A stretch of 64,000 nucleotides of DNA from a virus, in the IMG/VR virus record IMGVR_UViG_3300044640_001367, positions 1 through 64,000 of that record. One strand, written 5' to 3'. This document shows positions 875-44,034 of this stretch, piece after piece. A program made the translations under genes and the position numbers. The stretch's first letter is position 1. Every line of letters starts with the position of its first letter. The notes under the pieces are model-generated. The model was not told the DNA's origin and did not search any database. It was given only the letters and a program-made list of their open reading frames with translations.

Positions 875-875
875 T

Positions 876-4898: not shown

Positions 4899-6389
4899 AT
4901 GTCAACTACCTGCAATTTAATACAACAAATAAAAGTTAGTGATCTTGTAAGATACAACACATTAACAGCTAAGGATTTAATTTTAACAATTGAATCTGGA
5001 TCATCCAATAACTTGTACTCTCGAAAAAGTACATTTGGCGATATAGTTACATTTTTATCAGATGTTACGGGATCTTACACAGGAAGTTTTTCTGGATCCG
5101 CAAAAACATTAAAAGGTATTTTTACTGGTAGTTTTACAGGCAGTTTTAAAGGAAAACATTCAGGTAGTTTTAGTGGAAATTTTAATGGCCGTAATACAGG
5201 TAGTTTCACAGGCAGTTTTAAAGGATTAACTACAGGTAAATCCCAAACATCTGGATCGTTGAGTGGTAGTTTTAACGGTTACATATTAACTAAAAAAGCA
5301 AATGCTAGTGGTAGTTTTAGTGGAAGTTTGTATGGAACTATAATTAGTAAAAATTCAAAACTAACAGGTAGTTTCAGTGGAATTTCAAAAGGACAATTTT
5401 CAGGAAGTGTTTCAGCTAGTATAAAAGGTTACATCAGCGCTTCAAATCATTATAATGCCAATAGAAAAGTAGCATTTTATGGCACAGCTAGTTGTGCTAA
5501 AACCGCATCTTATTCTTTAAATTCAGGTGGAAATATAACAGGTACAGGTACTACAAATCAATTTTCATATTGGTCAGGAACAAGTGCATTGGGTTCTACT
5601 AATTATCTTGTAAGAAATAGTACTATTAATAATTTAGGTAGTATGGCAGCTGGCAGAGTAACTGCGAATAATCCTCTGCAATTTTCTACTGCTGGCGAAC
5701 AAATTATTCAACATTCGGCATCTGGACAATCGGTCTCTGGATTAGGATTACAAACTTCTAATAATTATTTAAGAACAACTGCTAATTTTGCAATTTATTA
5801 TTCAGGATCTCATATAAATACATCAGCGTTACCAGGCAAAGATGTAATTTGGCAGTCTGGTAAATCAGGATGGGGAATATTAGGCGCAAGACAAAGACTA
5901 TTAAGTGTGGGTAACATAGTAAGTTCTGATAATGTAAATGCTCAATTACATTTACATTTAAGTGGATCCACTGGTTGGCCAACAGGTTACAACCCAAATA
6001 CCAATGTATTTCTAATTACATCAGGTAGCAATCAAACAAAATTGTTACGTGTAAGTGGCAGTGGTCAATTGGACGTGAGAGGTGATATAGTTGCACTTTC
6101 AACATTCGCTTCGTCCGATATAAGACTCAAAGACAATATCAAAACTATAGAAAATGCTTTATCTAAAGTTAATCAAATACGTCCAATAGAATTTAATTGG
6201 AAGTCAAATGGAAAACAAGACTTTGGTGTTATTGCTCAACAAATTGAAGAATTGTATCCTGATTTAGTAACTGAAAATCTTGAAGGATATAAAGTTGTAA
6301 AATATAATCCACTTATCGCATTGTTATTAAAATCTATTCAAGAACTACACAAAGAAGTTCAAGAACTAAAAAATAAGATCGAATCTTAA
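4899..6389 (+). CDS. tail fibre with C-terminal S74 self-cleaving chaperone domain
   Basis: 496 residues in three parts. Residues 1-55 share the IKVSDL...YSRKST module with the neighbour. Residues 60-180 are about a dozen GSF(T/S)GSFxG repeats, a beta shaft. From residue 405 onward lies a peptidase S74 intramolecular chaperone: SSDIRLKDNI holds the catalytic serine and lysine (Ser405/406, Lys411), followed by the F-G-V-I-A-Q-Q segment and a C-terminal coiled coil. In this family the chaperone drives trimerisation of fibres or spikes and then cuts itself off, so the mature fibre should end near residue 405. Only two bases separate it from the upstream gene. Confidence 0.9.
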   Translation: MSTTCNLIQQIKVSDLVRYNTLTAKDLILTIESGSSNNLYSRKSTFGDIVTFLSDVTGSYTGSFSGSAKTLKGIFTGSFTGSFKGKHSGSFSGNFNGRNTGSFTGSFKGLTTGKSQTSGSLSGSFNGYILTKKANASGSFSGSLYGTIISKNSKLTGSFSGISKGQFSGSVSASIKGYISASNHYNANRKVAFYGTASCAKTASYSLNSGGNITGTGTTNQFSYWSGTSALGSTNYLVRNSTINNLGSMAAGRVTANNPLQFSTAGEQIIQHSASGQSVSGLGLQTSNNYLRTTANFAIYYSGSHINTSALPGKDVIWQSGKSGWGILGARQRLLSVGNIVSSDNVNAQLHLHLSGSTGWPTGYNPNTNVFLITSGSNQTKLLRVSGSGQLDVRGDIVALSTFASSDIRLKDNIKTIENALSKVNQIRPIEFNWKSNGKQDFGVIAQQIEELYPDLVTENLEGYKVVKYNPLIALLLKSIQELHKEVQELKNKIES

Positions 6390-8965: not shown

Positions 8966-8991
8966 TATTCATATTCAATCAAGGTTATATT

Positions 8992-9024: not shown

Positions 9025-9033
9025 TTTTGTAGA

Positions 9034-9041
9034 TATTTATA
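9034..9041 (+). promoter_or_regulatory. late-promoter-like octamer TATTTATA
   Basis: Exact TATTTATA between the hsp20 terminator and the ATG at 9045, ending three bases before the start codon. The position right behind a terminator argues for a promoter. Confidence 0.65.
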
Positions 9042-9044
9042 GAT

Positions 9045-10079: not shown

Positions 10080-10136
10080 TATTAAAATAATTTTTTTATC
10101 AATTTGTCACGGTTACATATATATGTAATTATACGC

Positions 10137-10554: not shown

Positions 10555-10567
10555 TATTATTACTTGA

Positions 10568-11578
10568 ATGAAACAAACAAAAAAAAGTAAAGTTGTAAAT
10601 AAAAAAACGACTAAAGTAGTAGCAGATAAAAAACGTAAAATTACTTCTATGGTAAATAGTGTTAACAAAAAAATCAAAAAACCAACCAAAATAACATCTT
10701 TTAAAAAAGTAGTTACACACCAACCGCCTAAAAAAAATAATAAAGTAAAATTAGATATTACATACGAATCTAAAAACTTATCTGAAATTAATGTTCCAAG
10801 AAATATTACCAGTAAAGATATAATAGTAATTAATGATCTAAACGCTATTAATAAAGAAGTAGAAGAATTAACAGATGTTAGAAAAAAACGACGTGGTAGA
10901 AACAAAAAAGAAAAGATTTATTTTTCTAAAAAGACTGAGGAAGCAATTATTGAGTATAATTTAGCAACAGATATGGTAATAAGAAACGAAATATATGAAA
11001 ATCGTATAAAGTATAGTTTTGATAAATTAGTTGAAAACATATTCAATACATTCAAATTTACTTATTTTGATAATAGTCCATTAGAAATTCAAAAAGAAAC
11101 TGTAACGCATTTAGTTTCTAATATGCATAAATTTGAAGCGGGTAAAGGCAAAGCTTTTAGTTATTTCAGTATTGTTGCTAAAAACTATTTGATATTTCAT
11201 AATAATAACAATTATAAACGATTCAATCAACATGTAGACATCAGTGACACGCCAGGTGACGACTGCGTTTGTTTGCAAACAGAAGATGCACATCATAAGA
11301 CTATTCAAACACAAGAGTTTATGAAATTGTTAATTAACTATTGGGAAAAAAATCTAACAAAGATATTTACCAAACAAAAAGATCTTAATATAGCATATGC
11401 AGTAATCGAATTATTTCGTAGTAGTGATAGAATAGAAAATTTTAATAAAAAAACACTGTACTTATATATAAGAGAATTAAGTAATTGCAAAACACAACAA
11501 ATTACTAAAATCATTAATAAGATGAAATCATATCAAAATGTAGTTATGAAAAATTACGCAGACAGCGGTAAAGTATAA
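10568..11578 (+). CDS. gp55: late-transcription sigma factor, T4 gp55-like
   Basis: 336 residues. The first 110 are lysine-rich and low in complexity, an extension absent from T4 gp55 (185 aa). The core at about 115-240 resembles sigma-70 region 2 as found in phage late sigma factors: a helical segment, then FEAGKGKAFSYFSIVAKNYL near residues 187-206, which matches the gp55-type F-(N)-x-x-x-(G)-x-A-x-x-Y-F-x-x-I-A-x-N motif, followed by the basic NNNNYKR. gp55 directs host RNA polymerase to short -10-like late promoters (TATAAATA in T4), so this is the likely reader of the TATTTATA elements listed here. A hairpin terminator follows 17 bases after the stop. I am fairly sure of the family but not of the exact promoter match. 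Confidence 0.75.
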   Translation: MKQTKKSKVVNKKTTKVVADKKRKITSMVNSVNKKIKKPTKITSFKKVVTHQPPKKNNKVKLDITYESKNLSEINVPRNITSKDIIVINDLNAINKEVEELTDVRKKRRGRNKKEKIYFSKKTEEAIIEYNLATDMVIRNEIYENRIKYSFDKLVENIFNTFKFTYFDNSPLEIQKETVTHLVSNMHKFEAGKGKAFSYFSIVAKNYLIFHNNNNYKRFNQHVDISDTPGDDCVCLQTEDAHHKTIQTQEFMKLLINYWEKNLTKIFTKQKDLNIAYAVIELFRSSDRIENFNKKTLYLYIRELSNCKTQQITKIINKMKSYQNVVMKNYADSGKV

Positions 11579-11595
11579 CACAAAACAAAACAAAT

Positions 11596-11625
11596 AAACC
11601 ACTCCAAATGGAGTGGTTTTTCTAT
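11596..11625 (+). terminator. rho-independent terminator after sigma factor gene
   Basis: A perfect 10-bp stem AAACCACTCC / GGAGTGGTTT with an AAAT loop and a TTTTTCT-type tail (11596-11622). The next TATTTATA starts inside its tail. Confidence 0.9.
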
Positions 11626-11630
11626 TTATA
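11623..11630 (+). promoter_or_regulatory. late-promoter-like octamer TATTTATA
   Basis: Exact TATTTATA directly behind the terminator, ending five bases before the ATG at 11636. It would drive the long tail/baseplate operon. Confidence 0.65.
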
Positions 11631-11635
11631 GATAT

Positions 11636-11977
11636 ATGGACTTAAATTTTGAAATTTACAAAGGAAAGAATTTTTCGGGTCTTTGTAAGGATATAGTGAA
11701 AAATTCAGAGAATAAAAAAGATCAAATCGATATATTAATATCGGAGTTACGGAGTTTGATCAAAACCATCAATGATGCTACCATCATAGTTCCTATGATT
11801 AAAGATTACTATGATGTAGGAATTAAAAACGATGAACAGTTAGTTAAGTTAGCGTCTGTTGTACAACGTTTGGTGGCTAAAGGTGAAGCTAGCGGCGAAG
11901 GTTCTTCTATGATATTAAGTGAAGACGAACGTAAACAATTGATGGAGGAAGTTATAACAATCAGTAAAGGCGAATAA
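11636..11977 (+). CDS. unknown protein at head of baseplate operon (113 aa)
   Basis: 113 residues, largely helical, starting MDLNFEIYKGKNFSGLCKDI with a central amphipathic stretch (residues 15-80) and an acidic end. No motif I can name. It is the first gene behind the terminator/promoter pair and its stop is separated from the spike gene by one base. Position suggests a small tail-assembly or structural protein, perhaps a chaperone for the hub, but this is inference only. Confidence 0.65.
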   Translation: MDLNFEIYKGKNFSGLCKDIVKNSENKKDQIDILISELRSLIKTINDATIIVPMIKDYYDVGIKNDEQLVKLASVVQRLVAKGEASGEGSSMILSEDERKQLMEEVITISKGE

Positions 11978-11978
11978 T

Positions 11979-13655
11979 ATGGTAAGCACAGACGTATCCA
12001 AATCAAATAAATCACCACAGTTAAATGATCAACAAATAAAAGATTTGGTTGATATTCGCTCACCCATACAACTTGCTGTCGTAGTCGATATAATTTTTGA
12101 CGAAACTCATATAAAATTACAAGATGCGTATAAACAAAAAATAAATCCGCAAACGGTTCCGCTTAATTATAAGAATGAACCAGCAAATGAAAACGATGTG
12201 GATTTTTCTTATATTGGACGTGCTAAAGTAAGAATATTATCACAAGAAAAAAAATCATCGGTTGAAAAATTACCTTGGGCTATACCACTTGAACAAACTA
12301 TAACACAATATCCACTGGTTAATGAATTGGTATTGGTGCAAAAGGTTGGAAACAATTATTATTATAGTAAACCATTAAACAAATTCAACTTCCCCAATAA
12401 TATTGATTATACAGTTGAAACAGTATATAGCGAAGATGGAACGCCGGCTGTCCCTTTTTATTTTGATGGTAATAGAGCCACTTATACATCCGCTCCAATT
12501 TATTCGAAGTATAATAATATAGGATATGTAGGACAATATTTCATTTCAAATCCATTTATACGATTGGTCAAGAAAAATGAAGGGGATACTATAATAGAAA
12601 GTAGATTTGGTCAGTCAATTAGATTTAGTGCATATGATGATAATAGACAAAATGATAAAGGTGTATATTCATCTTACGATTTGAATGGTAATTTATTGAA
12701 AGACTCAATCGGCGGTGGATATGGTAATCCTAAACTTACTATTAGAAATAGACAACGAAATATTGCTTTGGATGAACCACAACAATTACATCCTAAGTTG
12801 CCACCTATTCGTAAAATTACACCGGTTGAAAAGAATTTTGGCGGACAAATACCAGAAGATATTAACAACGACGGGTCCACTATTCAGCTAACAAGTGGCA
12901 AAACATCAAGTGAATGGAAAACTACAGTTTATAAAAGTATATTTGGTATAACGTCAAATGGAGAGTCAACAGAAGAACAAATAAGATTCAATCCAAAAGG
13001 TTCGACATCATTTAAGTTTCCAACTTTAAACAGCGATCAAATTGTAATAAATACAGATAGATTGGTACTAAGTAGTAGATTCGCAGAAACATTACATTTT
13101 AGTAAAAAACGGTATGCCATAACTACTGATAGTGAATATACAGTGGATGCTAATGATAATGTAGTTATAACTACAAATAATACCGCTTGTATTAATGCGC
13201 CACAAATATTTTTGGGACAATATGGAGAAACAAATGAACCAGCATTGTTAGGTCAAACAACTGTAGATTGGATGTATGATCTTTGTAATTGGTTATTGGA
13301 CCACGTTCATTGGTCTCATCATGTGCATCCACATCCACATACACATCCTAGATCAGGAAATGCAACTCCAGAGAATACAAGAGATGCTAATCCAGATCAA
13401 ACACAAATACCAGTACAACAAATTAAACTACAATTATTAAGAGATAATTTACACAAGACACTAAGTAGACGTGTATTTGTTACCGGAGGCGGATATGCGC
13501 CTGGTAGCAATGGAGTTAAACCAGCTGGTAGTGGCGGAGAGTGTAAAGATCCAATAAAAATTAATACTGTTACAGGTGCTGGAGTTGTGGGGGATTTCAA
13601 AGGTAGAAATCGTCGAGAAGGGCCAGTACAAGTCGAATTTGAATTTCAGAATTAA
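11979..13655 (+). CDS. gp5: baseplate hub/central spike protein, T4 gp5-like
   Basis: 558 residues. Around residues 75-130 lies an OB-fold-like segment (GRAKVRILSQEKKS, LVNELVLVQKVGNNYYYS), as at the start of gp5 and VgrG-type spikes. The middle (residues 190-310) has the pattern DTIIESRFGQSIRF, TIRNRQRN and EDINNDGSTIQLTS found in hub proteins of T4-like marine phages. Near residues 435-460 is a histidine cluster (HWSHHVHPHPHTHPRSG), reminiscent of metal-binding tips of P2-type spikes. No lysozyme domain is seen, unlike T4 gp5. It should form the puncturing device at the tail end. Position upstream of gp25 and gp6 fits. The family match is by pattern only. Confidence 0.7.
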   Translation: MVSTDVSKSNKSPQLNDQQIKDLVDIRSPIQLAVVVDIIFDETHIKLQDAYKQKINPQTVPLNYKNEPANENDVDFSYIGRAKVRILSQEKKSSVEKLPWAIPLEQTITQYPLVNELVLVQKVGNNYYYSKPLNKFNFPNNIDYTVETVYSEDGTPAVPFYFDGNRATYTSAPIYSKYNNIGYVGQYFISNPFIRLVKKNEGDTIIESRFGQSIRFSAYDDNRQNDKGVYSSYDLNGNLLKDSIGGGYGNPKLTIRNRQRNIALDEPQQLHPKLPPIRKITPVEKNFGGQIPEDINNDGSTIQLTSGKTSSEWKTTVYKSIFGITSNGESTEEQIRFNPKGSTSFKFPTLNSDQIVINTDRLVLSSRFAETLHFSKKRYAITTDSEYTVDANDNVVITTNNTACINAPQIFLGQYGETNEPALLGQTTVDWMYDLCNWLLDHVHWSHHVHPHPHTHPRSGNATPENTRDANPDQTQIPVQQIKLQLLRDNLHKTLSRRVFVTGGGYAPGSNGVKPAGSGGECKDPIKINTVTGAGVVGDFKGRNRREGPVQVEFEFQN

Positions 13656-20158: not shown

Positions 20159-23100
20159 ATGCCTTACGACTATTTGACAATAAACGATAATGATTTGAAT
20201 AAGGGTATTACAAGTGCATCTTATTTCAATGCCAATTTGCAGTCTTTGTACGAACAACAAGTTGTAAGTAATGATGTATTTTATGGAGAATCCGACGACG
20301 ACTTGTTTGAATTTACTCTTTATAATAATAATCAACAACTTGTAAGTTTTAACAGAGTAATTCCATCCGTTACATATTCCATATTACAAGGAAGTTATAG
20401 AGATATAAATAATGAGTTGAGATCGTATCAATTCGCAAATCCATTTACAAATATTGTATCTCACAAAAATGATATTTTATTACACCCACAATTTGATTTA
20501 AATGCTAGTGGAGTTGGTCCAGGTTTGTATTACTTGTTGTATAATCCAGTTAGAAATATAGCCGGCAATCCGACAAATAAATTGGTTATAAAAGAGATAT
20601 CTCCAAGTAGAACTGAAATACGGTTATCTTATGCATTTGACACAACTAAAAATGAATCATCTAGGTTAGATGCGGTTAAGATAAGATCATTTGCTGATAA
20701 AAAATATTTGTTATTGAGAATATATCAAGATTTAATTGATATTATTAAAAACAATCCAATCGAACAAGACTTTCTGTTAAATAAAAATAAGTATAATTAT
20801 ACAGATATTTGTTTGAAGTTAGGTCTAAAAAGTGAAGCTGAATTGCAGGAATTTATAACATCAACATACGTTGGATATAATTCTGTAATTAAATTAAATA
20901 GTGATACTGATACTACGATTTTACAGACAAGTAAATTTTCAGGTGTACAGGAACAAATTAACAATTTTATATACACATATAACAATGTAGAATTTACCAA
21001 TCAAGAAATATTAGAGTCTTTCAGAATCATCACATTAAAAGTATCACAAGATAGAGTATTACAAAAAAGTTCTATAAATGATATCGATTTACAAAATATA
21101 TTGGGATTATTTGAACAAACGATTTATACCGATTGGATATTGCCGAATGTAACTAATTTATTAGAAAATTATAGAACAAAATATTATGGTTATTATAAGA
21201 ACGCATTGAATTTTGACAATGGAAATTTAATAAAAATTCTAGATCATACAAATTATTTAAATTCAATAGATGATACTTTTAACATACAAGTAAAATTAGA
21301 TGCTCCATTACCTTTACAATATAATATAAAATCGACATGTTGGATATCAAACATATCAATTGCTCCAATTTATTTTAAAGTTAACTTATTTACTTCGAAG
21401 ATATCAAGAAAAGTATTTTTAAACGATATAAATTTTGATGTTCAAGTTAATACGTCGCATCCATCTACAGAAAGATATCAAAGTAATGACGCGTTTACTC
21501 TGGACAAAGCAACAGTAAGATTAAAAGAAAAGTATAATGATTTGTATATAGATTATACAGATTTCAACAATTTTATTAATTATTCATCAGCTGAATTACG
21601 TACTAAAATTGCTAAGAATAAAATCAAAGATTATAATCAACTTGAGTCCGTTAAGAAATCGACTATTAATTCCGCAACAAATACAAGTGCGACAATTTCA
21701 TCTTCTTATAGTCAGTTGGTTAATCAGAAGACATCTCAACAAATCACATTGCTGGATACATTTGATGAATACGAATCCTATTTGTTTTTTAATTCATCCA
21801 GTATAGACAACAAAATCGATGAGGCTATTACATATGATTCGGATAACTATAATAGTTTGGTATATCAACTTCCTGAATATGTAAAGGATGACTCCGATTC
21901 AGCGGATTACATAAAATTCACCGCAATGACCGGACATTTTTTTGATAATATATTAGTCTTTATCAAGAAGTTTCCTAAAACATATCCTATTTCTAACAAT
22001 GATTCAAGTTACTATCCAAAGAATTATATAGATGAATTATTGAACAGTTTTAATTGGAACGTTGACATTGACAAATTTTCTCAAAGTGATTTAAATCAAT
22101 TATATTTAAATAATCAAGAAATTTCAGGTTACAACTCCGCTTCTTATTTCGATTATACAAAATCAATTTTAAATCGATTTGCAAATAACATTTCATCTGT
22201 ATATAAATCCAAGGGTACTATCAATTCATTTGAAATGATACGTACTATGTTTGGCATTCCATCTGGATTAATATCTACCAGAGAGTATGGAAGTGCTGAC
22301 GCTTTTTCCAATCGTGATAATTACTTCGTATACGATGATATTATTTATATGACAGATTTCAAGGAAAATAATTTCTTGAATTTTCAACATACTAGTAGTG
22401 ATTTTATTTATACCACTAGTAGCTACTACGCATCTGGATCCAATATTAATACATTCACCAGTAGCACCGAATACACATCAAAATTTAATGGTATATCTAC
22501 AATTGAATTTTCTTTTAGATTTAAATCGACTAATTATAACTTCGACGACAAGATACAATTGATGTCGAAATATAGAAATAAAAAGTCTGATTGGAATTTA
22601 TTTATAAAAAAATCAAAGCAAGTTAACAGTGGTCAATTAGTATTTGAAATACATCCATATGAATTGGGTAACACCACGTCTAGTTTGATATTAAATGAAA
22701 TACCATTATTAAACGGCGGCATTTTCACTGCTATGTTAAAGCGTGAGCCTGTTCTTGGAGATTTCGATAAGTTGCGGGTTCGTTCAATTAAAACCACTAA
22801 TGAAGATACTCCTTTTATTATAGAAGACGACGGTGATTTTGTGATAGAAGACGATGGCGATTATGTCACATTAGCATCTCAAAAAACAATATTAACAGCT
22901 TCTTATTTTATTAATTCGACAAATGAATTTATTCCATACATATACAGTCTATCCATTAATCAATATGATGGAAGCGTTAAGAATTTCTCATCAACAAAGC
23001 GTAAACTTATAAATTATAATACAAACAAGAAGTTTTCATCGGGTAGTTATTATATAGGTAATTATTCGTCTTCTGTTTCTTTTATAGGAAATTTGGATAA

Positions 23101-24805
23101 AATCAAAATTTTAAAAGAACCACTTAATAATGAATATTTCGATGAACATTCTTATAATTTAGATTCGATATCAATACCAAATAAAGAAAATGTTTATTCT
23201 AATTTGTTTTATTTATGGAGTTTCGACACGCCTGTAGATTTGTATTCATCTACATCGATTAGTACAACCGTACATAATCAAAATATTTATTATAATACGC
23301 AATTCTTTGCTTATAATTTTGGACAAACAGAAAAGTATTATAGCTATCCAACTTGTTCGAATGTAATGATTACTCAGTTCCCATATCAATTTGATAAAAT
23401 CGATCTTAAACAAACTATAAACACCAATAACTTTGGACCAAATTTCAAAATTAATGGTAAAATAAACAAAATAACCGAAACAGCTTTGTCTAATTTAACG
23501 CCGTATGATTATTCGACGAGAATTCAAGACAGTTTAGGTGACGATTCTATCTTATCAGGATTTTTTATAAGTCCATATAACTATTTAAATCAAAAAATAG
23601 AGAATTTTATAGGTTTGGATGGTATAGCCGATATTATAGGTGAACCTCAAAATTTAAACAAACAAAATTATGATGGATTGACTAAATTACAACGTGAATT
23701 CGGCGAAATAAATGAAAAATATATATACCCACAAGAATTTTATAGTACATATAAATTCTACATTGATTTTTCTATATTTGATGTTGTAAAAAATTTAAAA
23801 CCGTCTAGATCTAATTTATTGACAGGCCTTGTATTAGAACCAAGCTTGTTTGAACGTAAAAAGTTTAACTACAGAGATGTGGAATTTTTAACAAATAACG
23901 AATTTGACATATACTTTAATAACAAGACAACATTTACATCTTCTTTATTAAATACGGTTGATATTGCAAACTTCGCTATAGTAACTAGTTCTAACGTTAA
24001 TAATATTACCAGAGATGAAAATACTTATAATTACTCTCGTCTAGAAATTAAAGACACAATCGACGACCGTGATTTTATTTATGCAAAGTATGGAAAATAT
24101 GTATATATTGATTCAAATGGATATAATGTACGAGACACAGTTAATGTAGGCAAAAAAGATTATTATCAATCTGTTAATAATGATGGATTTTTAGTAACAT
24201 TTACTTCTTCATTTGACGAAGTTCAAGTTATTGGTTCTGGGTCGGGATATTCTGTAGGTTCATCTGGCATCTCAGGTACATCCGGCATCTCAGGTACGTC
24301 CGGTACATCCGGTACATCCGGTACATCCGGCACATCCGGCACATCCGGCACGTCGGATTATATAGGATTTAATGTTCAAGTTACCGGAAGTAAGTACCTG
24401 AAAAACTACTATAAAGGCGTATTTAATACAGGATATTCTAATAGACATTTAAGTAAGTTTACATTTGTTGGAAGTCGAACCAAATATCAAGCGGTAAGTG
24501 GTTCTAAGACGCAACTTTTGAGTGGATTGAAGTTGAATACAAAAGGCGATATTGCATATTATACTTATATTAAAGGTAAAAATGATAAGAACAGTACTGT
24601 AAATAGAAAAGGCGTTACAAATGGAAGTTCGCCTGTTATTACCATACCAGGATTTTTAAGTTTGAATATCGAAACCAATAATGCTCCTTCATATGGTGAT
24701 ACAACTGGCTCAATTAGTAGTACTGACTCATTATTCATACAATTACCATTAACCGCTTCTTTACTAACCAGCGCGAGTTTGGAAAGATACATAATGAATT
24801 TATAA
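20159..24805 (+). CDS. giant tail/baseplate structural protein with LamG-like insert and GTS repeats
   Basis: 1548 residues, the largest product here. The N-terminal 700 residues are mixed alpha/beta, with wedge-like features but no clear similarity. At about 770-1010 there is a probable concanavalin/LamG-type beta-sandwich (TIEFSFRFKSTNYNF, then KIQLMSKYRNKK and SGSYYIGNYSS), as used in carbohydrate-binding modules. Residues 1369-1399 are ten (G-I/T-S) triplets. The final 150 residues form a separate domain. It probably forms an arm or peripheral plate of the baseplate, analogous in size to T4 gp7 (1032 aa) but extended. Glycan binding is an inference from the fold pattern. Confidence 0.65.
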   Translation: MPYDYLTINDNDLNKGITSASYFNANLQSLYEQQVVSNDVFYGESDDDLFEFTLYNNNQQLVSFNRVIPSVTYSILQGSYRDINNELRSYQFANPFTNIVSHKNDILLHPQFDLNASGVGPGLYYLLYNPVRNIAGNPTNKLVIKEISPSRTEIRLSYAFDTTKNESSRLDAVKIRSFADKKYLLLRIYQDLIDIIKNNPIEQDFLLNKNKYNYTDICLKLGLKSEAELQEFITSTYVGYNSVIKLNSDTDTTILQTSKFSGVQEQINNFIYTYNNVEFTNQEILESFRIITLKVSQDRVLQKSSINDIDLQNILGLFEQTIYTDWILPNVTNLLENYRTKYYGYYKNALNFDNGNLIKILDHTNYLNSIDDTFNIQVKLDAPLPLQYNIKSTCWISNISIAPIYFKVNLFTSKISRKVFLNDINFDVQVNTSHPSTERYQSNDAFTLDKATVRLKEKYNDLYIDYTDFNNFINYSSAELRTKIAKNKIKDYNQLESVKKSTINSATNTSATISSSYSQLVNQKTSQQITLLDTFDEYESYLFFNSSSIDNKIDEAITYDSDNYNSLVYQLPEYVKDDSDSADYIKFTAMTGHFFDNILVFIKKFPKTYPISNNDSSYYPKNYIDELLNSFNWNVDIDKFSQSDLNQLYLNNQEISGYNSASYFDYTKSILNRFANNISSVYKSKGTINSFEMIRTMFGIPSGLISTREYGSADAFSNRDNYFVYDDIIYMTDFKENNFLNFQHTSSDFIYTTSSYYASGSNINTFTSSTEYTSKFNGISTIEFSFRFKSTNYNFDDKIQLMSKYRNKKSDWNLFIKKSKQVNSGQLVFEIHPYELGNTTSSLILNEIPLLNGGIFTAMLKREPVLGDFDKLRVRSIKTTNEDTPFIIEDDGDFVIEDDGDYVTLASQKTILTASYFINSTNEFIPYIYSLSINQYDGSVKNFSSTKRKLINYNTNKKFSSGSYYIGNYSSSVSFIGNLDKIKILKEPLNNEYFDEHSYNLDSISIPNKENVYSNLFYLWSFDTPVDLYSSTSISTTVHNQNIYYNTQFFAYNFGQTEKYYSYPTCSNVMITQFPYQFDKIDLKQTINTNNFGPNFKINGKINKITETALSNLTPYDYSTRIQDSLGDDSILSGFFISPYNYLNQKIENFIGLDGIADIIGEPQNLNKQNYDGLTKLQREFGEINEKYIYPQEFYSTYKFYIDFSIFDVVKNLKPSRSNLLTGLVLEPSLFERKKFNYRDVEFLTNNEFDIYFNNKTTFTSSLLNTVDIANFAIVTSSNVNNITRDENTYNYSRLEIKDTIDDRDFIYAKYGKYVYIDSNGYNVRDTVNVGKKDYYQSVNNDGFLVTFTSSFDEVQVIGSGSGYSVGSSGISGTSGISGTSGTSGTSGTSGTSGTSGTSDYIGFNVQVTGSKYLKNYYKGVFNTGYSNRHLSKFTFVGSRTKYQAVSGSKTQLLSGLKLNTKGDIAYYTYIKGKNDKNSTVNRKGVTNGSSPVITIPGFLSLNIETNNAPSYGDTTGSISSTDSLFIQLPLTASLLTSASLERYIMNL
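24263..24355 (+). repeat. 9-bp tandem repeat encoding GTS triplets
   Basis: A run of 31 codons made of units like GGT-ACA-TCC, encoding S followed by ten G-(I/T)-S triplets. Codons vary mostly at third positions, so the array is partly degenerate. Collagen-like or flexible linker repeats of this type occur in phage appendage proteins. Confidence 0.85.
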
Positions 24806-34920: not shown

Positions 34921-35883
34921 ATGTCATTATCAGATACAATTTATCTAGAAAAATTCGGAAATATAACTATTGAAATTTCGGAAGATGGATTATTTCAAAC
35001 TATAAGTGATATCAATACTAATTGCGAATTCTTAATAACAATTAGAAGTTTAGATTCCAATCTCATATCACATTTATTGTACCATCATTGCACAGTCGGT
35101 TATGATTTGTGGACGTATGAACGTCGTTTATTTTTCATAAAAGATGTATTTAATAAAACTCATCCTGGTTTTTCCATAGAAATAACCGACGTAAATAATA
35201 ATAATCTTTTGTTTAGTAAAAATTATCACGGATCTAAAAAGTTTAGATGTTTAGATTTAAAATCTAAAGATGGCGATGTTACATATCAACCATATCATAC
35301 TTTTTTTAATGATGATTATTTTTTAGATAATTTCAAAATAAAAGATAACGATATTGTTTATGATTTAGGAGCTAACATAGGATCATTCTCAATTGCGTGC
35401 TCTAATTATAATGTTAAAAAAATATATGCATTTGAACCACATCCAGAGATTTTTGGATATTTGAATTATAACTTAGATAAGTATGGAAAAAATGTAACGA
35501 CATTTAATAATGCAATCGATGGTACTTTTAAAAAAGTAAAATTTGGTACTACAGAATGGACGGTAGGATCCAAGATTAGTGATACAGGTACATTTGAAGT
35601 GGATGCTATTAATTTAGAAAAATTTGTAGCAAATAATAACTTGGAATTACCAACATATTTTAAAATTGATATTGAAGGAGCTGAATATACATTTTTTGAA
35701 AGTACGAGCAACGAATTTTTTAAAAATGTCCATAGTATATTTTTTGAATTTCATTACAACGATGGTATAAATGTTCCAAAGATAATTAATAGATTTAAAA
35801 ATTTAGGATATAAATTGATTCACAAAGAAAATGCTTTGGATCATAATCTATCACATATGAATGCGATCTATCTCAACAAGTAA
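34921..35883 (+). CDS. FkbM-family SAM-dependent methyltransferase
   Basis: 320 residues. An N-terminal 110-residue domain of unknown type precedes a class I methyltransferase fold: VYDLGANIGSFS at about 141-152 is the SAM-binding motif I, IYAFEPHPE follows, and FKIDIEGAE (near 242-250) is the FkbM-type motif. FkbM enzymes O-methylate sugars or polyketides. The two glycosyltransferase genes downstream suggest it methylates a sugar attached by them. One base separates it from the SbcD-SbcC gene. Its target is unknown. Confidence 0.85.
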   Translation: MSLSDTIYLEKFGNITIEISEDGLFQTISDINTNCEFLITIRSLDSNLISHLLYHHCTVGYDLWTYERRLFFIKDVFNKTHPGFSIEITDVNNNNLLFSKNYHGSKKFRCLDLKSKDGDVTYQPYHTFFNDDYFLDNFKIKDNDIVYDLGANIGSFSIACSNYNVKKIYAFEPHPEIFGYLNYNLDKYGKNVTTFNNAIDGTFKKVKFGTTEWTVGSKISDTGTFEVDAINLEKFVANNNLELPTYFKIDIEGAEYTFFESTSNEFFKNVHSIFFEFHYNDGINVPKIINRFKNLGYKLIHKENALDHNLSHMNAIYLNK

Positions 35884-35886
35884 ATT

Positions 35887-37899
35887 ATGAAAAAAATATT
35901 GTTTATAGCGCCACATCTTTCCACTGGCGGATTGCCTCAGTTTTTGTTAAAAAAGATACAATCATTGATAAATGATTATGAAATATATTGTGTGGAATAT
36001 GATGATATTACGGGAGGGGTTTTGGTTGTACAACGAAAACAACTTCAAAAAATATGCGGAGGAAGATTTTACACACTCTCGTCAAACAAGTTTGAATTAT
36101 TTAAACTAATAGATGACATAAAGCCTGATATTATTCATCTTGAAGAAATGCCAGAGTATTTTATGGATGTTAATTTAGCGACTAAATTGTATAATAAAGA
36201 TAGAGAATATCTGATCGTTGAAACATCACACGATAGCAGCTTTGATCCTAAGAAAAAAAGAGTTTTTCCAGATCAGTTTACTTTTGTAAGTAATTATCAA
36301 AAACAAAATCTTGAATCGTTAAATGTAAACACGGCGGTTATTGAGTATCCAATTGCAGTTAAACGTAGAAAAAATAGAACGGAGGGACTAAACTTTTTGG
36401 GATTGGATGAAACTAAAAAACATGTATTGCATGTCGGATTATTTACGCCACGGAAAAATCAAAAAGAATTTGTAGAATACGCTCGAGCAATGGAAAATGA
36501 AAACGTTCAATTTCATTGTTTGGGTAATATGGCCGACAACTTTAAAACATATTGGCAGCCTATATTAGAAAATTTACCATCCAACGTAAAAGTCTGGGGT
36601 GAAAGAAAAGATGTAGAGAACTTCTATAGTTGTATGGATTTGTTTTTATTCACTAGTAGAGGACACGCTACCGATAAAGAAACAGCTCCAATTGTAATTA
36701 AAGAAGCTATCTCTTATAATATACCATCGCTATTATATAATTTGCCTGTTTATCTCAACCGATATAATGTGTTTGAAAATATAAAGTATTTGGATGAAAC
36801 CAATTTTAACCGCAATGTAAAACTTATAAAAAATAAATTGGGGATGAATTCAGATTTGGAAGTGGTTAATTTAATTTCTAACAAAACATCAAGTAAAGAT
36901 ACAGTAGTTATTATATCAACGCATCCAAATTTTAAAGCTGTTGAAGATACGACACTAGAATCAATTAATCAAGCTAAAAAAGCTGGGTATAAAGTATTAT
37001 TGTCATCACATTATCCAGCTAGTGTGAATTTACAAAAAGCAGCTGATCACTATGTTTATGATGCAAATAATCCTATTTTAAAACACAACTTCTATAATAG
37101 GTGGACATACGATTTAAATAACACTAAAATTAGTTTATACTTTCCACCATCGGATTGTGACAACTATCATGGACTCGCTGTATTAATAAACTATTATAAC
37201 GGTATATCTCTAGCAAATAAAATTGGATATAAAAATGCAATTTGCTTTAATTATGATATGATTATTTCAGATTTAGATTTTTCAAAGTTATATGACGTTG
37301 ATGATATCCTGATTAATAAAAAAGCATTCTTTTTTTATGATAAAGCATTAGAGGGAGATACATTTAAGACAGTGTTCCATGGAATTAATACTCAATTCTT
37401 TTTGGAAAAATTCAAATATTATACGCCGGATGATTATATGGATTTTGTTACTAAAAAGAATATTTCAAATGGATTAGAACAATTTTATTATAACAAACTA
37501 ATTTCTTATAAAAATGATTTACACATAGATTATACAAACAACGAAGAAACTTATTTAAGTAATAGTAAGAATAATTTATTCTCGATGGTAGAATATCTAT
37601 CTGTACTGAGAATGAAGAATATAAATAAGTTTGGCGTTTTAACTTATATTAATAATAAAGTAGATGATAGAATAAATGAGATAATAATAAAAAAGAACGG
37701 AACAATGGAGAATTATCATACATACAATGTATCAGATAAAGTTTGCTTCTATTTAGCAAATGATTTTGAAAATGATAACTTTTACGAAATCGAAAACAAT
37801 CTATATGATCAAAATAAAATTTTGTTGAGGAGTTATAAAAAATCTTTTAGACGACTTGAGGATATAGATATTAACGGTTCTATTGATATTACACAATGA
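35887..37899 (+). CDS. two-domain glycosyltransferase (GT4-like plus second domain)
   Basis: 670 residues. The N-terminal half (1-330) is GT-B/GT4-like: IAPHLSTGGLPQFL at the start, HVGLFTPRKNQKEF (around 177-191) at the hinge of the second Rossmann domain, and the donor-site segment ETAPIVIKEA near 267. The second half (from about 340) starts with DTVVIISTHPNF and may be a second transferase domain of GT-A type, but I cannot identify its family. The last codons overlap the next gene by four bases (ATGA). It belongs with the methyltransferase and the heptosyltransferase in a sugar cassette inserted before the sheath gene. Confidence 0.75.
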   Translation: MKKILFIAPHLSTGGLPQFLLKKIQSLINDYEIYCVEYDDITGGVLVVQRKQLQKICGGRFYTLSSNKFELFKLIDDIKPDIIHLEEMPEYFMDVNLATKLYNKDREYLIVETSHDSSFDPKKKRVFPDQFTFVSNYQKQNLESLNVNTAVIEYPIAVKRRKNRTEGLNFLGLDETKKHVLHVGLFTPRKNQKEFVEYARAMENENVQFHCLGNMADNFKTYWQPILENLPSNVKVWGERKDVENFYSCMDLFLFTSRGHATDKETAPIVIKEAISYNIPSLLYNLPVYLNRYNVFENIKYLDETNFNRNVKLIKNKLGMNSDLEVVNLISNKTSSKDTVVIISTHPNFKAVEDTTLESINQAKKAGYKVLLSSHYPASVNLQKAADHYVYDANNPILKHNFYNRWTYDLNNTKISLYFPPSDCDNYHGLAVLINYYNGISLANKIGYKNAICFNYDMIISDLDFSKLYDVDDILINKKAFFFYDKALEGDTFKTVFHGINTQFFLEKFKYYTPDDYMDFVTKKNISNGLEQFYYNKLISYKNDLHIDYTNNEETYLSNSKNNLFSMVEYLSVLRMKNINKFGVLTYINNKVDDRINEIIIKKNGTMENYHTYNVSDKVCFYLANDFENDNFYEIENNLYDQNKILLRSYKKSFRRLEDIDINGSIDITQ

Positions 37900-40040
37900 A
37901 AATTATACAAGTTAATCTGGGTTTATTGCCTATTCCACCCAATGGATGGGGAGCGGTTGAAAAAATTATTTGGGATTACTACCAGCTTCTAAATAATAAA
38001 GGATTGGATTGTCAAATAAAATATTTGAATGAAATTCATTATGCGGATGACACAATTGTACACGTCCACGTAGCAAATCTTGCGAACGAATGTCATAAAC
38101 GTGGTATACCGTATATCTTTAGTTTACACGATCACCATTCTTATTTATATGGTAAAGAGTCAGATGTATATAAAGAAAACCTTCAAGCTATTGAGAACAG
38201 TGTACTATCAACATGTCCAGCCAAATATTTGGTTGATTATTTTGGCAGTAAGAAATTACGTTACTTTTCTCACGCGGTTAACACAGATGTATTCGTGTGC
38301 AAAAATAATAAAAACGATGTAAATAAATTGTTATGCGTTGCAAATAATGGTTATGCGAATAATCAATCTTATGACAGAAAGGGATTTGTATACGCAATTA
38401 AAGTTGCTAAAGAATTAGGATATCCAATTACAATTGCTGGTCCATCAAATAATAAAAAGTTCTTTGATCATTTAGATTCTGAATTAAATAATTACGATAA
38501 ATTAACCAAGCTATTTGATTTAACGGAGGAACAATTAATTAATTTATACAATGATCATTCTATATTTTTACACCCATCTGAATTAGAAGCCGGACATCCC
38601 AATTTAACTTTGTTAGAAGCAATGAGTTGTGGTTTACCTGTAGTAGGTACATTTGAAGAAAAATCATATAACGGTATGATTGTAGTTGATCGCAATGTAG
38701 AACAAATCAAGTCTGCTGTACAAACGATAACTAGTGATTATGACACGTATAAAAATAAAGCACTTCAATCCGCAAACGAAAATTCTTACTTCAATCGCGT
38801 GCATCAATTAATTGATTTATATGATCACTATACCGAAAGATTATTCGCCATTCGTCATATTAATGTTTATGAAAATATAAAAAAGAATGAACAAAGTATT
38901 AAAACAAAAGCTATATTTAAATATACGTTCAATGACGCAGCTAAGATAGAAGTAGACAATCCATTGGATACAGATCAAAGTTTCCACGTCACATTCTATA
39001 ATAGTGACGACGACACGATTAAGTACGAAACTGATTTAAAACATAATTGGTGGGGAAGTTGTAATTTTACATATTACATTCCTTATGAAATTCATATTAA
39101 AGATAATAAGACAAATGAATTGGTAGAAACTTATAAATTTAATTTAAAGAATAAAAAGGTATTGATTGAATATGAAAGTTTTTCTTTAGGCGATCAATTA
39201 GCTTGGATGCCTATCATAGAACAATTCAGAAAGAAACACGAATGCGATCTTTACGTAAAATTGCCTTTAAAAAATATTTTTGAGAAAAAATATCCTAAAA
39301 TTAAGTTTATTGACAATAACAAATTTGTATCGGATGTATTCGCTACTTACAAATTGGGATATTATGTTGACGAAAATGGAGCAAACAATGATAGATGTAA
39401 ATCTGATCCTAGAAAACAACCACTGCAAAAAATAGCAAGTGATTATTTGGGATTGCCATATGAACCAGAGTCGCCTTTGATTGATTTTAAAATCAAAGAA
39501 CGACCACTAAAGAAAAGATATGTTACTATCGCAACACAAAGTACCTGTCAAGCCAAATATTGGAATAATAAAGGCGGATGGGAAAAAGTAATCGAGTATC
39601 TTAAATCCAAAGATTTTGAAGTAATTTGTATCGATAAACATAAAGTATTTGGTAATGGCCGGGATTGTGTCAACAATATGCCATCAAATGCGTTAGATTA
39701 TACAGGAGATAAACCACTTGTGGATCGTATGAATCAGATACACCACAGCGAATTCTTTATTGGTTTACCATCTGGCTTATCTTGGTTAGCTTGGGCAGTT
39801 AAAAAGCCAGTTGTACTTATTAGTGGGTTTTCTTATCCATATGCTGAATTTGAAACTCCATATAGAGTGCAAAATCACTCAGTATGTACAGGATGTTGGA
39901 ATGATTCTTTATTTGATAAGGGAAATTGGAAATGGTGTCCAAAATCAGATAAAAAAGAAGAATTTGAATGTACCAAAGAAATAACCCCAAAGATGGTTAT
40001 TGATGTTATCGATCAATTATTAATAGAACAAAAAATTTAA
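37896..40040 (+). CDS. GT4 glycosyltransferase fused to TibC/BAHT-type O-heptosyltransferase
   Basis: 714 residues. The N-terminal part (1-320) is GT4: GWGAVEKIIWDYY, then HPSELEAGHPNLTLLEAMSC (around 227-246) with the E-x7-E donor motif. Residues 420-714 match autotransporter O-heptosyltransferases such as TibC: SLGDQLAWMP, IATQSTCQAKYWNNKGGW, FFIGLPSGLSWLAWAVKKPV and the four-cysteine site CTGCWND...CP...ECTK (Cys664, 667, 681, 692), which binds iron in TibC. Those enzymes add heptose from an ADP-linked donor to serines of strand-loop-strand repeats. Here the natural substrate could be the phage's own repetitive fibre proteins, an inference. Confidence 0.85.
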   Translation: MKIIQVNLGLLPIPPNGWGAVEKIIWDYYQLLNNKGLDCQIKYLNEIHYADDTIVHVHVANLANECHKRGIPYIFSLHDHHSYLYGKESDVYKENLQAIENSVLSTCPAKYLVDYFGSKKLRYFSHAVNTDVFVCKNNKNDVNKLLCVANNGYANNQSYDRKGFVYAIKVAKELGYPITIAGPSNNKKFFDHLDSELNNYDKLTKLFDLTEEQLINLYNDHSIFLHPSELEAGHPNLTLLEAMSCGLPVVGTFEEKSYNGMIVVDRNVEQIKSAVQTITSDYDTYKNKALQSANENSYFNRVHQLIDLYDHYTERLFAIRHINVYENIKKNEQSIKTKAIFKYTFNDAAKIEVDNPLDTDQSFHVTFYNSDDDTIKYETDLKHNWWGSCNFTYYIPYEIHIKDNKTNELVETYKFNLKNKKVLIEYESFSLGDQLAWMPIIEQFRKKHECDLYVKLPLKNIFEKKYPKIKFIDNNKFVSDVFATYKLGYYVDENGANNDRCKSDPRKQPLQKIASDYLGLPYEPESPLIDFKIKERPLKKRYVTIATQSTCQAKYWNNKGGWEKVIEYLKSKDFEVICIDKHKVFGNGRDCVNNMPSNALDYTGDKPLVDRMNQIHHSEFFIGLPSGLSWLAWAVKKPVVLISGFSYPYAEFETPYRVQNHSVCTGCWNDSLFDKGNWKWCPKSDKKEEFECTKEITPKMVIDVIDQLLIEQKI

Positions 40041-40119: not shown

Positions 40120-43100
40120 ATGCCAATAACAGAAGGCGGAAGATTCGCCCCAACACAAAATATAGTAAGCCCAGGTGTATTCACACGTGAAAATGACCTC
40201 TCCGGTCTGGCTCAAGGAGTAGCAAACATTGGAGGAGCAATTATTGCTCCATTCGCTGACGGACCAGCGTTTTTTCCAAATACAATAACCAGCGTATCCG
40301 ACTTGGAAACAAGATTCGGTGTCGCTGATGGTGTGTATTATGGACCATACACAGCGAAAGAATATCTACTACAACAAGGTATAGTTACTATTGTTCGTGT
40401 AGGTGGTCTAACCGGTTACTGGCAAAAGAATCCATTGATTGTATATGCCCAACCAGGTATCTGGGACAGAAACGCTGATAAAGGAGCTATCACAACAGCT
40501 TCATTTATGTATATTGATACTACTGACTATGTATCAAACGTTAATTATCAACAAACTAGTACCGCTGTTAACATCACTGGTTCGGCTGAAATTAAGGGTT
40601 CAGTAGGCAGTGGTATAACAGGATCAGCTACATTTACGAGAGCAACAACTGCTGAAATTTCATCATATTTAGCTACAGTCGGAAGTGTTACTGGAATCAA
40701 TGCACTTTCAGCTTCTTTGGCAACTTCATCCAGTTTGGGTAAAGTATACAAAGTTGTTTCCACAAGACATTATGAATTGTTTAGCAGCTCTGTTGTTGCC
40801 AGAAACGGTAAAGTTGCAAAAGCGGGATCTTCAGTAGATCATTCTTTGGCCGCATTTGATTTTGATAAATCGCGTATAAGTGGTAGTGTTACTGTCGGAG
40901 GTGGTGGTTCAAGTAAGTTCAAACTAACATTTGATAGTTCAAACAATAATTACTTAACCGCATCATTTACTGCTCCAAATACATTTGGTTTGGTTTTTGC
41001 TAACTACGGTGCAAATTCATCATTATCATTTACAACTGCGAGTTTGAGTGGTGCTGGATTGAGTTCTTCAATTCAATTGGTACAACGCATTGATATTTCG
41101 ACGATGACAATCAGTGGATCGTTGAATGTAAAATTCGGATCCGCAGCTGTAACAAGTGGTGTAACTGCAGATGACGCTGACGGTGTAGGTAAGTTAAGTG
41201 GTAGTATCTTGTACGCTAATAAAACAGTTGATATCGGTACAGTTTCTTCTGGGTTATTAGTACGTAAATTTAGTACCGCTACTCTAGCAAATGGTAATGC
41301 AAAGCCAGTTGGTACTAAATTCTTCTTGTTGACATCAAGTTTACAAGGCGCAAATATAGATGCCGAAACATCCGTGGCCACAGCATTTGATGAAAGTACA
41401 ACAACCGTTGATCTAGTAAGTTCATCTTACTTCAATGGTAATATCGCTTACAATTTATCAAACTTCAATGTAGAAGCAGGCACAACACTAACACTACAAA
41501 GTGGTAGTTTCCATTCACTACGTGGTGTTGGAAGTTGTGTAGCCGGTCTACAAGTAATAGGTGTGATAAGTGGTGACTTCGGTAAGTATAGTGGCGCATT
41601 TACAAGTCAAGACAATGCAAGCCCAGATCAATGTAATCCAGTACTAACAGGTCGTCAAAAGTTGATCTTGTCAGTATTAGCAAATACCCAAAATGCTTCT
41701 ACACAATTTAGCAATGATTATGAAGTATACGGATTCAATACCTCAACATTGAGCCAATTGACAAGTAGTACATTCCCATATAAGAATGTAATCGACCCTA
41801 ATGCAAATGTTTACAACTTGGCATTAAAGTATAGTTATACAAATACAGCTGGTGGCACAAGTGCTGGTACATATGGTTACTACGACTTCAGTTTAAATGA
41901 AAACGATAATAACTATATCAAAGACGTATTTGGTATGGATCCAACCGTTGGCAATCCTAATAAACAAGTGGCTGGTCAAAAAGTTGAAGCTGCTTACAAC
42001 TACGTTCTATTCGAAGATAGCATCAAGAAGTTCGTAGCTGAAAAGACAAGTGCTTATGGATGGAAACTACAAGTAGGCACAAGCAATCTATCAGGAAGTT
42101 CAATTGTTGGCGAACCTCTAAAGTTTGTCGATCAATATAGTACTGATTTGAATAACGGCGATAGTCAATTTAGCATCACCAATGCTTCTACCCCTTGGAT
42201 CTACAGTCAAAAGATTGCTCCATTCAAAGGTAGTGCTGATGTAGCCGCTTCACCAACTAAGTTCAAGTTGTTCAAAGTTCACACTTTGAGCGATGGCACA
42301 CCAAGTAACACTAAGTTCAAGATTGAAATCAGCAACGTTAAGTTGTCTGGTACTGTCCCAGGCAGTGAATGGGGTAGTTTCACACTATCAGTACGTGCTT
42401 ATAGTGATACTGATAAGAAGCCAAAGTATTTGGAAATCTATCAAAACTTGAATTTGGATCCAGAATCCGCAAACTATGTTGCTCGTAGAATTGGTAACAG
42501 ATATGCATATATCACTTATGCTGGTAAAATAATTCAATTCGGTGATTTTACCACATTAAGTAAGTATATCAGAATTGAAGCCAGTGACGTTTCTTACCCA
42601 GTAAGTTGCGTACCATACGGATTTGAATCATATAGTACACCTATTGATAGTACTGCAAGTAGTTATGTACCTGCTATACAATACAGTAAGGCAAGTATCT
42701 ACGGTCTAGGGCCTGGTAAGTATCCATCAGGTACAGTATTTGGTAGTGTACCAGGTACTGACACTGAAATTCAAGCTCTATATCCAACATCTTCATTTGG
42801 TGTAGGTGTAGAAAATAACACTAAGCAATACTTCAAGCCATTGCCATACTATGGATCAACTGATAGTAATGGTGCAAATATCGACTTCGATTTAGAAGAT
42901 AAGGTATGGGGTACAACAAATAGTAAATTCTATGCTCAGGGTACATACGTGAGTACAGGATCATTACTATCTCCAACATTGAGTGGTAGTATTCCAAGTG
43001 TTTACGACGCTGTAAATGAATCTACATATGTCAGACTACGTAAGTTCGTACTTGGATTCCAAGGCGGATTTGAAGGTCAATGGCCAGCAATTCCAATCAA

Positions 43101-44034
43101 TGTGGGTGGTAATATTACAGCTGGTAATACACAAGGTTTAGATTGTACAAATATCAATAGTCCTGGTAGTATCGCTTATAAGCAATCTATTGCTGCAATC
43201 GGTAATCCAGATGAATTTGATATCAACTTGATTGTAACCCCAGGTATATTCCGTGAACAACACAGTTATGTAACTGAATTGGTTATCGATATGTGTGAAA
43301 CTCGTCAAGATTGTTTCTACATTATGGATAACGTAGTGTTCCCAGCAAGCAATCAAACCGTAGGATTGATTGATGCAGCTATCAACAGTGTAGCCACAAT
43401 CGACAGTAATTATGTAGGTACTTATTATCCTTGGGTTAAGATCCTAGATACTAACACCAACAAGATTATCAATGTTCCTCCTTCAGTGGTATTACCAGCA
43501 GTTTACGCTGCTAACGATAACTCCGCTGCTGAATGGTACGCTCCAGCAGGTCTAAACCGTGGTGGTATTGCAACCGCTGTACAAGTACTTGATCGTGTAA
43601 CCCACGGTGAACGTGATACGTTGTACGAAGGTCGTGTAAATCCAATCGCAGCATTCCCCGGTCAAGGTATCTGTGTATGGGGTCAAAAGACTCTACAAAT
43701 CGCCCCAAGCGCTTTGGATCGTATCAATGTACGTCGTTTGTTGATCAACTTGAAGAAGTTTATCGCAAGTTCAAGCAACTACTTGGTATTCGAACAAAAC
43801 GTTGCTTCTACAAGAAATCGTTTCTTGAGTATTGTAACTCCATACTTGGAATCAGTACAACAACGTAACGGTATCTACGCATTCCAAGTCAAAATGGACG
43901 ATGAAAACAATACTCCTGACTTGATTGATCGTAATGTTCTTTACGGACAAATCTTCATCCAACCAACTAGAACTGCTGAATTCATTATTCTTGATTTCAA
44001 CATTCTACCAACAGGTGCTAGTTTTAGTTCCTAA
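40120..44034 (+). CDS. gp18: tail sheath protein, T4 gp18-like, very long
   Basis: 1304 residues, about twice T4 gp18 (659). The N-terminus (residues 15-110) has the sheath pattern SPGVFTRENDLSG and a beta-hairpin domain (GYYGPYTAKEYLLQQG-like). The conserved C-terminal core at about 1020-1304 includes LIVTPGIF, FYIMDNV, YPWVKILD, AGLNRGGIATAV, INVRRLLINLKKFI and a final FQ...IFIQPTRTAEFI. The extra 500-650 residues in the middle are Ser/Thr/Gly-rich and probably form surface domains on the sheath. Codon choice is biased (AAG, CGT, GGT, AAC, CTA), especially in the last two thirds, as expected for very high expression. A strong ribosome binding site and a following terminator make it a single-gene unit. 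Confidence 0.93.
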   Translation: MPITEGGRFAPTQNIVSPGVFTRENDLSGLAQGVANIGGAIIAPFADGPAFFPNTITSVSDLETRFGVADGVYYGPYTAKEYLLQQGIVTIVRVGGLTGYWQKNPLIVYAQPGIWDRNADKGAITTASFMYIDTTDYVSNVNYQQTSTAVNITGSAEIKGSVGSGITGSATFTRATTAEISSYLATVGSVTGINALSASLATSSSLGKVYKVVSTRHYELFSSSVVARNGKVAKAGSSVDHSLAAFDFDKSRISGSVTVGGGGSSKFKLTFDSSNNNYLTASFTAPNTFGLVFANYGANSSLSFTTASLSGAGLSSSIQLVQRIDISTMTISGSLNVKFGSAAVTSGVTADDADGVGKLSGSILYANKTVDIGTVSSGLLVRKFSTATLANGNAKPVGTKFFLLTSSLQGANIDAETSVATAFDESTTTVDLVSSSYFNGNIAYNLSNFNVEAGTTLTLQSGSFHSLRGVGSCVAGLQVIGVISGDFGKYSGAFTSQDNASPDQCNPVLTGRQKLILSVLANTQNASTQFSNDYEVYGFNTSTLSQLTSSTFPYKNVIDPNANVYNLALKYSYTNTAGGTSAGTYGYYDFSLNENDNNYIKDVFGMDPTVGNPNKQVAGQKVEAAYNYVLFEDSIKKFVAEKTSAYGWKLQVGTSNLSGSSIVGEPLKFVDQYSTDLNNGDSQFSITNASTPWIYSQKIAPFKGSADVAASPTKFKLFKVHTLSDGTPSNTKFKIEISNVKLSGTVPGSEWGSFTLSVRAYSDTDKKPKYLEIYQNLNLDPESANYVARRIGNRYAYITYAGKIIQFGDFTTLSKYIRIEASDVSYPVSCVPYGFESYSTPIDSTASSYVPAIQYSKASIYGLGPGKYPSGTVFGSVPGTDTEIQALYPTSSFGVGVENNTKQYFKPLPYYGSTDSNGANIDFDLEDKVWGTTNSKFYAQGTYVSTGSLLSPTLSGSIPSVYDAVNESTYVRLRKFVLGFQGGFEGQWPAIPINVGGNITAGNTQGLDCTNINSPGSIAYKQSIAAIGNPDEFDINLIVTPGIFREQHSYVTELVIDMCETRQDCFYIMDNVVFPASNQTVGLIDAAINSVATIDSNYVGTYYPWVKILDTNTNKIINVPPSVVLPAVYAANDNSAAEWYAPAGLNRGGIATAVQVLDRVTHGERDTLYEGRVNPIAAFPGQGICVWGQKTLQIAPSALDRINVRRLLINLKKFIASSSNYLVFEQNVASTRNRFLSIVTPYLESVQQRNGIYAFQVKMDDENNTPDLIDRNVLYGQIFIQPTRTAEFIILDFNILPTGASFSS

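Follow-up and report, generated by a model that had tools for sequence, protein, structure and literature searches.

We describe a three-gene glycosylation cassette in a phage and favour, at odds of roughly two in three, a reading where its products would build a glycan on a collagen-like fibre of the phage itself: a heptosyltransferase domain of the BAHT family would heptosylate the fibre, GT4 glycosyltransferases would extend the sugar and an FkbM-family enzyme would methylate it. The cassette (positions 34921–40040) lies within positions 1–64000 of a 71,997-bp IMG/VR virus record (IMGVR_UViG_3300044640_001367). This stretch of 64,000 nucleotides is called the window below; the 72-kb record is a fragment, in which the phage genome is not complete. 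The reading draws chiefly on an association between phage BAHT enzymes and collagen-like repeat proteins, which recurs in bacteria.

A TibC-like enzyme in the phage

A sequence-only reading of the window had placed an FkbM methyltransferase, a two-domain glycosyltransferase and a GT4-heptosyltransferase fusion side by side, the last two overlapping. The three open reading frames (ORFs) are arranged in just this way, with an overlap of 4 bases. The fusion protein carries a GT4 domain (PF00534) at residues ~160–286, followed by the BAHT domain at residues 337–709 (about 38904–40022). The latter matches TIGR04414 (hepto_Aah_TibC) over residues 337–707 with 347 bits, the curated cut-off being 200, and phmmer aligned it to TibC (4rap) with an E-value of 1.7e-74. 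Its predicted model has the TibC fold (TM-score by target of 0.86 to 4rb4 over 389 columns, Foldseek), with N-terminal beta-barrel strands at residues 340–414.

The residues that TibC requires, their roles and its four iron cysteines have been described (PMC4358343), as has the selectivity for D,D-heptose that Pro300 confers (PMC4358343). In the alignment the catalytic base Asp110 corresponds to D433 of the fusion protein, the donor-site residues Thr226, Lys230, Arg286, Trp305 and Pro300 to T550, K554, R611, W630 and P625, and the iron-finger cysteines Cys339, Cys342, Cys358 and Cys370 to C664, C667, C681 and C692, so that all four are kept. The TibC-type enzyme with its signature segments and four-cysteine iron site, as recognised in the sequence-only reading, is thus confirmed, and at the family level the identity is certain. 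The GT4 fusion might alter the assembly of the dodecameric ring.

Two branches of the BAHT family

Such enzymes are frequent among phage contigs: a protein search yielded 60 viral loci; by alignment, at least 585 viral stretches and at least 524 bacterial ones were recovered, and 80 of each were kept for analysis. In an IQ-TREE phylogeny of the BAHT domains, 21 classic bacterial representatives are separated from 29 viral clades with support of 100/100. The enzyme of the window falls on the phage side of this deep split, and four bacterial representatives also group there. The four-cysteine iron finger is kept in all 29 viral clade representatives. Architectures vary: the domain may stand alone (~397 aa), be fused to GT4, GT2 or FkbM, or occur in tandem with a second, shorter BAHT. 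This second copy of ~285 aa (L097 at 11088–11933, L107, L130, L132) still has its catalytic base and every iron cysteine, but lacks the length for the N-terminal barrel that TibC needed; it may be a partner subunit.

Among deposited phages the enzyme is rare. Only 5 of 50,697 records match, one of them over the GT4 part only; the other four, which have a BAHT domain, come from three phages, the results for LR756501 and LR756503 being identical. Of these phages, two possess collagen-like repeats, adjoining the BAHT in the isolated Microcystis phage Mel-JY01 (PP395634.1, L559) and with 1,446 matches in LR756501. The collagen-like frames of Mel-JY01 are on the plus strand (2–3052 and 9444–9986), at positions where the deposited annotation has hypothetical proteins mostly on the minus strand; the annotation probably missed them.

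Collagen-like repeats accompany the phage enzymes

In several independent clades, serine-rich fibre ORFs lie a few genes from the BAHT, and very large repeat proteins adjoin it in distant clades (2,614 aa with 44% serine in L052, 2,810 aa with 41% in L059, 3,117 aa with 42% in L135). Most of these neighbours consist of collagen-like Gly-Ser-Ser/Gly-Thr-Ser repeats, and the large repeat protein of L045 also carries an S74 fibre chaperone domain. The pattern (G[ST][ST])4 was found in 34 of 50 BAHT-bearing phage records, while the reversed pattern was found in none; counted by BAHT clade, the repeats occur in 9 of 12. Controls were drawn from other phages because every record in IMG/VR that is related to the window by its large terminase (TerL) and spans the slot upstream of the sheath gene carries a BAHT. 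The pattern was absent from all 33 control records selected for Gly-Pro-X repeats and present in 2 of 15 BAHT-free T4-like terminase relatives (1 match in one, 3 in the other), giving 2/48 for the pooled controls (Fisher p about 8e-12). The reverse test agrees: of the 47 records of 30 kb or more that contain (G[ST][ST])6, 21 match TIGR04414, versus 0 of 33. Comparative genomics lends good support to the idea that the phage-side BAHT branch acts on collagen-like repeats.

Repeats of another kind were seen in two records with a stand-alone BAHT (L077 at 2–1270, L076 at 1113–3329), where serine-rich (SVSESDSVS)n and SPSASP repeats resemble serine-rich repeat adhesins.

The same pairing in bacteria

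Runs of (G[STA][STA])4+ near a BAHT gene occur in 5 of 80 bacterial loci, and these are exactly the ones on the phage side (p 4e-8): the four phage-side representatives plus L171, with 87% identity to one of the four. The repeats are within about 0.1–2 kb of the enzyme. This pattern was first seen on reading five loci chosen from the tree (L180, L171, L199, L201, L208), and the count over 80 loci was made afterwards. L180 belongs to the cultured methanotroph Methylobacter luteus. A fresh set comprised 17 BAHT loci from 301 Methylococcales genomes, 10 viral-side and 7 classic, with three of the ten viral-side loci being Methylobacter-like and repeating L180/L171 at 87–100% identity. An adjoining protein with the repeats is present at 7 of the 10 viral-side loci (8 by eye, L590 included) and at none of the 7 classic ones. 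The viral-side neighbours match Pfam Collagen and start with apparent signal peptides (judged by eye), while Pfam AIDA was found in the classic ones, at L598 and L602 at least. One bacterial order thus contains two BAHT branches, each associated with its own kind of repeat protein. Among 369 Gammaproteobacteria searched at E<=1e-50, only the two genomes already known gave matches.

Candidate acceptors in the phage

The best candidate acceptor, judged by its repeats, is a fibre encoded 2.4 kb past the window end. Its ORF is cut off by the contig end and specifies at least 1,873 aa with 45% serine. It matches PF01391 Collagen with 748 bits (E 2e-231), so that a collagen-like protein is present in the same genome; 98.8% of the repeat triplets start with glycine, mostly as GSS and GTS, and the long repeat has almost no proline. 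Inside the window, a (GTS)7 run is the only stretch of (G[STA][STA])3+.

The sequence-only reading had proposed the GSFTGSF-type repeats at 4899 and 17787 as natural substrates. These repeats exist; their role as substrates is probably wrong, as the motif does not track the enzyme and the collagen-like G-[ST]-[ST] repeats do. The pattern GSx.GSx had no match in the examined stretches of cluster B phages, Mel-JY01 and LR756501 and one in cluster C; a motif not common to BAHT-bearing phages was rejected as enzyme-linked. An autotransporter target was likewise rejected: at E<=10, nothing in the 72-kb record (a fragment) matched the TIGR04415 repeats.

The sheath, encoded directly downstream, was rejected as a general substrate, as its adjacency to the BAHT is conserved in the window's own lineage only. 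In distant phages the neighbour differs, for example a 1300-aa ORF that is not a sheath homologue; in cluster B this protein (L028 at 8373–12293 and relatives) shows nucleotidyltransferase- or ligase-like segments by eye. The sheath has an insert at residues ~100–500 that is hypervariable, with 27–54% identity or largely missing among the window, L276, L280 and L290, the remainder being mostly 77–97% identical between close relatives. In L010 the variable insert and the enzyme type are uncoupled. As an alternative substrate the sheath is a weak candidate.

Accessory enzymes and sugar donor

The first gene of the cassette encodes a member of the FkbM family (TIGR01444, 74.4 bits with a cut-off of 37.7, E 1.2e-20; PF05050, 59 bits, E 7.5e-16). 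Other phages have FkbM and BAHT in one polypeptide, as GT4-BAHT-FkbM in L094 and BAHT-FkbM-SDR in L101, and because of these fusions we tie methylation to the same product. The 670-aa protein has a GT4 part at residues ~1–320, followed by C-terminal domains at ~338–550 and a beta-rich one at 565–655; its C-terminal half had no match in Pfam, NCBIfam or PHROG. The AlphaFold2 model (pLDDT 86) matches GT4 enzymes in Foldseek, such as HepE (4xsu, TM-score by target 0.68). In many clades of phages, homologues of this glycosyltransferase adjoin the BAHT.

One phage clade (L045, L048, L053–L055) carries HldE-I-like (124–127 bits) and HldE-II-like (90–100 bits) genes directly downstream of the BAHT, and the kinase-like gene is also present in L061. 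Between the BAHT and these genes lies a small cupin (L045 at 11346–11732, L048 at 11349–11735) with weak likeness to lyxose/mannose-phosphate isomerases, which might supply the heptose-phosphate isomerase step. Heptose is the likely sugar.

Exchange of the enzyme within a lineage

Relatives of the phage with a terminase ~91–92% identical and a sheath 65–75% identical over its length fill the slot ahead of the sheath gene with a different BAHT allele, only ~42–45% identical. The alleles swapped at this slot (37896–40040) in L273, L276, L280, L290 and L291 include proteins of 714 aa and 700 aa and a tandem of 711+281 aa. As the one slot is filled in every record that spans it and its alleles differ, exchange of the enzyme seems to leave the function in place. 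It is speculation that such exchange would fit sugar variation under selection.

Proposed mechanism and alternatives

We propose that the BAHT domain would move a heptose, most likely D-glycero-D-manno-heptose, from host ADP-heptose to serine, and possibly threonine, in the Gly-Ser-Ser/Gly-Thr-Ser repeats of the giant fibre, and that this transfer would take place in the host cytoplasm, ahead of assembly. The fused GT4 and the neighbouring 670-aa glycosyltransferase would probably lengthen the sugar, extension by GT4 being suggested because the GT4 fusion recurs, and the FkbM enzyme would probably O-methylate it. A dense glycan coat would then stiffen and protect the long, nearly proline-free repeat fibre. 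The order of steps, the transfer activity, the identity of the sugar and the benefit are all inferred; the biological role may be any of stiffening, protection, adhesion or antigenic variation.

Several observations weigh against this proposal. The repeat pattern is lacking in 16 of the 50 BAHT-bearing records, many of them fragments, and in LR756504 (636 kb). Records of one clade do not count as independent, and lineage and G+C content are not the same in the control sets as in the BAHT phages. In the genome of the window the cassette and the collagen-like fibre are 26 kb apart. As to the donor, the HldE-like scores are under the equivalog cut-offs, so that 'HldE-like' is a fair name, and no HldE was found in the window's lineage (134 kb of a close relative). 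The equivalent of Arg286 is kept in the window; 16 of 29 viral clade representatives have another residue there, and the donor may therefore differ in some lineages.

The last points lead to an alternative with the same collagen-like target and another donor, a hexose or other nucleotide sugar instead of ADP-heptose. It would account for the replacement of Arg286, for the glycine or serine that stands at the position of Pro300 in 27 of 29 viral representatives, and for the lack of HldE at most phage loci. The enzyme of the window, however, keeps all TibC donor-site residues, Pro300 and Arg286 included, HldE-like kinase and adenylyltransferase genes adjoin the BAHT in one clade, and within the family ADP-heptose is the donor used by AAH and TibC (PMC4358343); we regard another donor as rather unlikely. 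Heptosylation of the GSFTGSF beta-strand repeats or of the serine-rich sheath insert is quite improbable. Both are present, the sheath is the next gene with its variable insert, and TibC modifies serines of a beta-helical autotransporter (PMC4358343); against this stand the scarcity of GSx.GSx in other BAHT phages, the missing TIGR04415 match, the different BAHT neighbour in distant phages and the insert of L010, which varies independently of the enzyme.

GT4 and FkbM enzymes act on cell-surface glycans too, and host lipopolysaccharide (LPS) or a different glycan of the cell surface might be what the cassette modifies, for instance as a block to superinfection. LPS modification is the published reading of rfaE plus glycosyltransferases in pelagimyophages (PMC7029224). 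BAHT is, however, a family of protein serine glycosyltransferases, whose iron finger is invariant among the viral representatives, and a link to repeat proteins in both phages and bacteria is not expected of an LPS enzyme, so that we consider a host glycan highly improbable. The preference for the phage's own fibres over host glycans, already voiced in the sequence-only reading, is now backed by the association between BAHT and repeats. We therefore retain the collagen-like fibre as the favoured target.

Gene setting

The cassette lies in a T4-type context, with packaging and head genes (large terminase at 46811, portal at 48427, major head protein at 55608) and the sheath gene of a contractile tail (Table 1). 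A search for structured RNA near the cassette found none.

Table 1. Cassette genes, candidate acceptors and related features (window coordinates unless stated otherwise)
Feature	Position	Strand	Family matches and remarks
FkbM-family (O-)methyltransferase, 320 aa	34921..35883	+	TIGR01444, PF05050
Two-domain glycosyltransferase, 670 aa	35887..37899	+	GT4 N-terminal half (PF00534/PF13692)
GT4-BAHT fusion, 714 aa	37896..40040	+	PF00534 + TIGR04414
Tail sheath, 1304 aa, directly downstream of cassette	40120..44034	+	PF04984/PF17482, PHROG tail sheath
(GTS)7 collagen-like run, minor candidate acceptor	24293..24355	+	inside 1548-aa protein at 20159–24805
Collagen-like fibre, main candidate acceptor	record 66378–71996, beyond window	+	PF01391 Collagen
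S74-chaperone tail fibre with GSFTGSF repeats	4899..6389	+	PF13884, PHROG tail fibre
Serine-rich protein with GSFTGSF-type repeats, 630 aa	17787..19679	+	15.6% Ser, no family match

Relation to known systems and significance

The enzyme shares with TibC and AAH the family, fold, catalytic base, donor site and four-cysteine finger. It differs in belonging to a separate, phage-side branch, in its fusion to GT4 (GT2 or FkbM in relatives) and in its tie to collagen-like repeats in place of an autotransporter or TIGR04415 target. The SRRP/Gtf systems of Firmicutes also combine low-complexity serine repeats with neighbouring cytoplasmic glycosyltransferases, but differ in the enzyme families and the first sugar. 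To our knowledge, the collagen glucosyltransferase of mimivirus and the phage BAHT are unrelated enzymes. That amoebal giant virus, a virus of eukaryotes, likewise encodes both collagens and a collagen glycosyltransferase, which acts on galactosylhydroxylysine, another residue (PMC9546862).

The mycobacteriophages Che8, Corndog and Myrna glycosylate their own capsid and tail-tube proteins with phage-encoded enzymes (Freeman et al. 2023, cited in PMC12363180); the portion of that source used here names these virion proteins, not collagen-like fibres, as targets and mentions no BAHT enzyme. Virion glycosylation by phage enzymes as such is thus known; O-heptosylation, for which the sequence-only reading claimed novelty, and the collagen-like target would be new in the literature searched, which yielded no paper linking phages to BAHT enzymes.

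The balance tips slightly towards a still wider interpretation, a system of prokaryotes and their phages devoted to the O-glycosylation of collagen, where the phage-side BAHT would heptosylate both phage fibres and exported bacterial collagen-like repeats, the sugar being methylated and extended, and where some phages would bring their own ADP-heptose pathway. Our data suggest that part of the gene sets of the pelagimyophage type may serve fibre glycosylation rather than LPS modification. If the proposal is true, it would provide a function for a large, so far unexplained set of phage glycosyltransferases that are mostly interpreted as LPS-modifying 'auxiliary metabolic genes', would explain how proline-poor collagen-like fibres thousands of residues long may be stabilised, and would add a second substrate class to the BAHT family.
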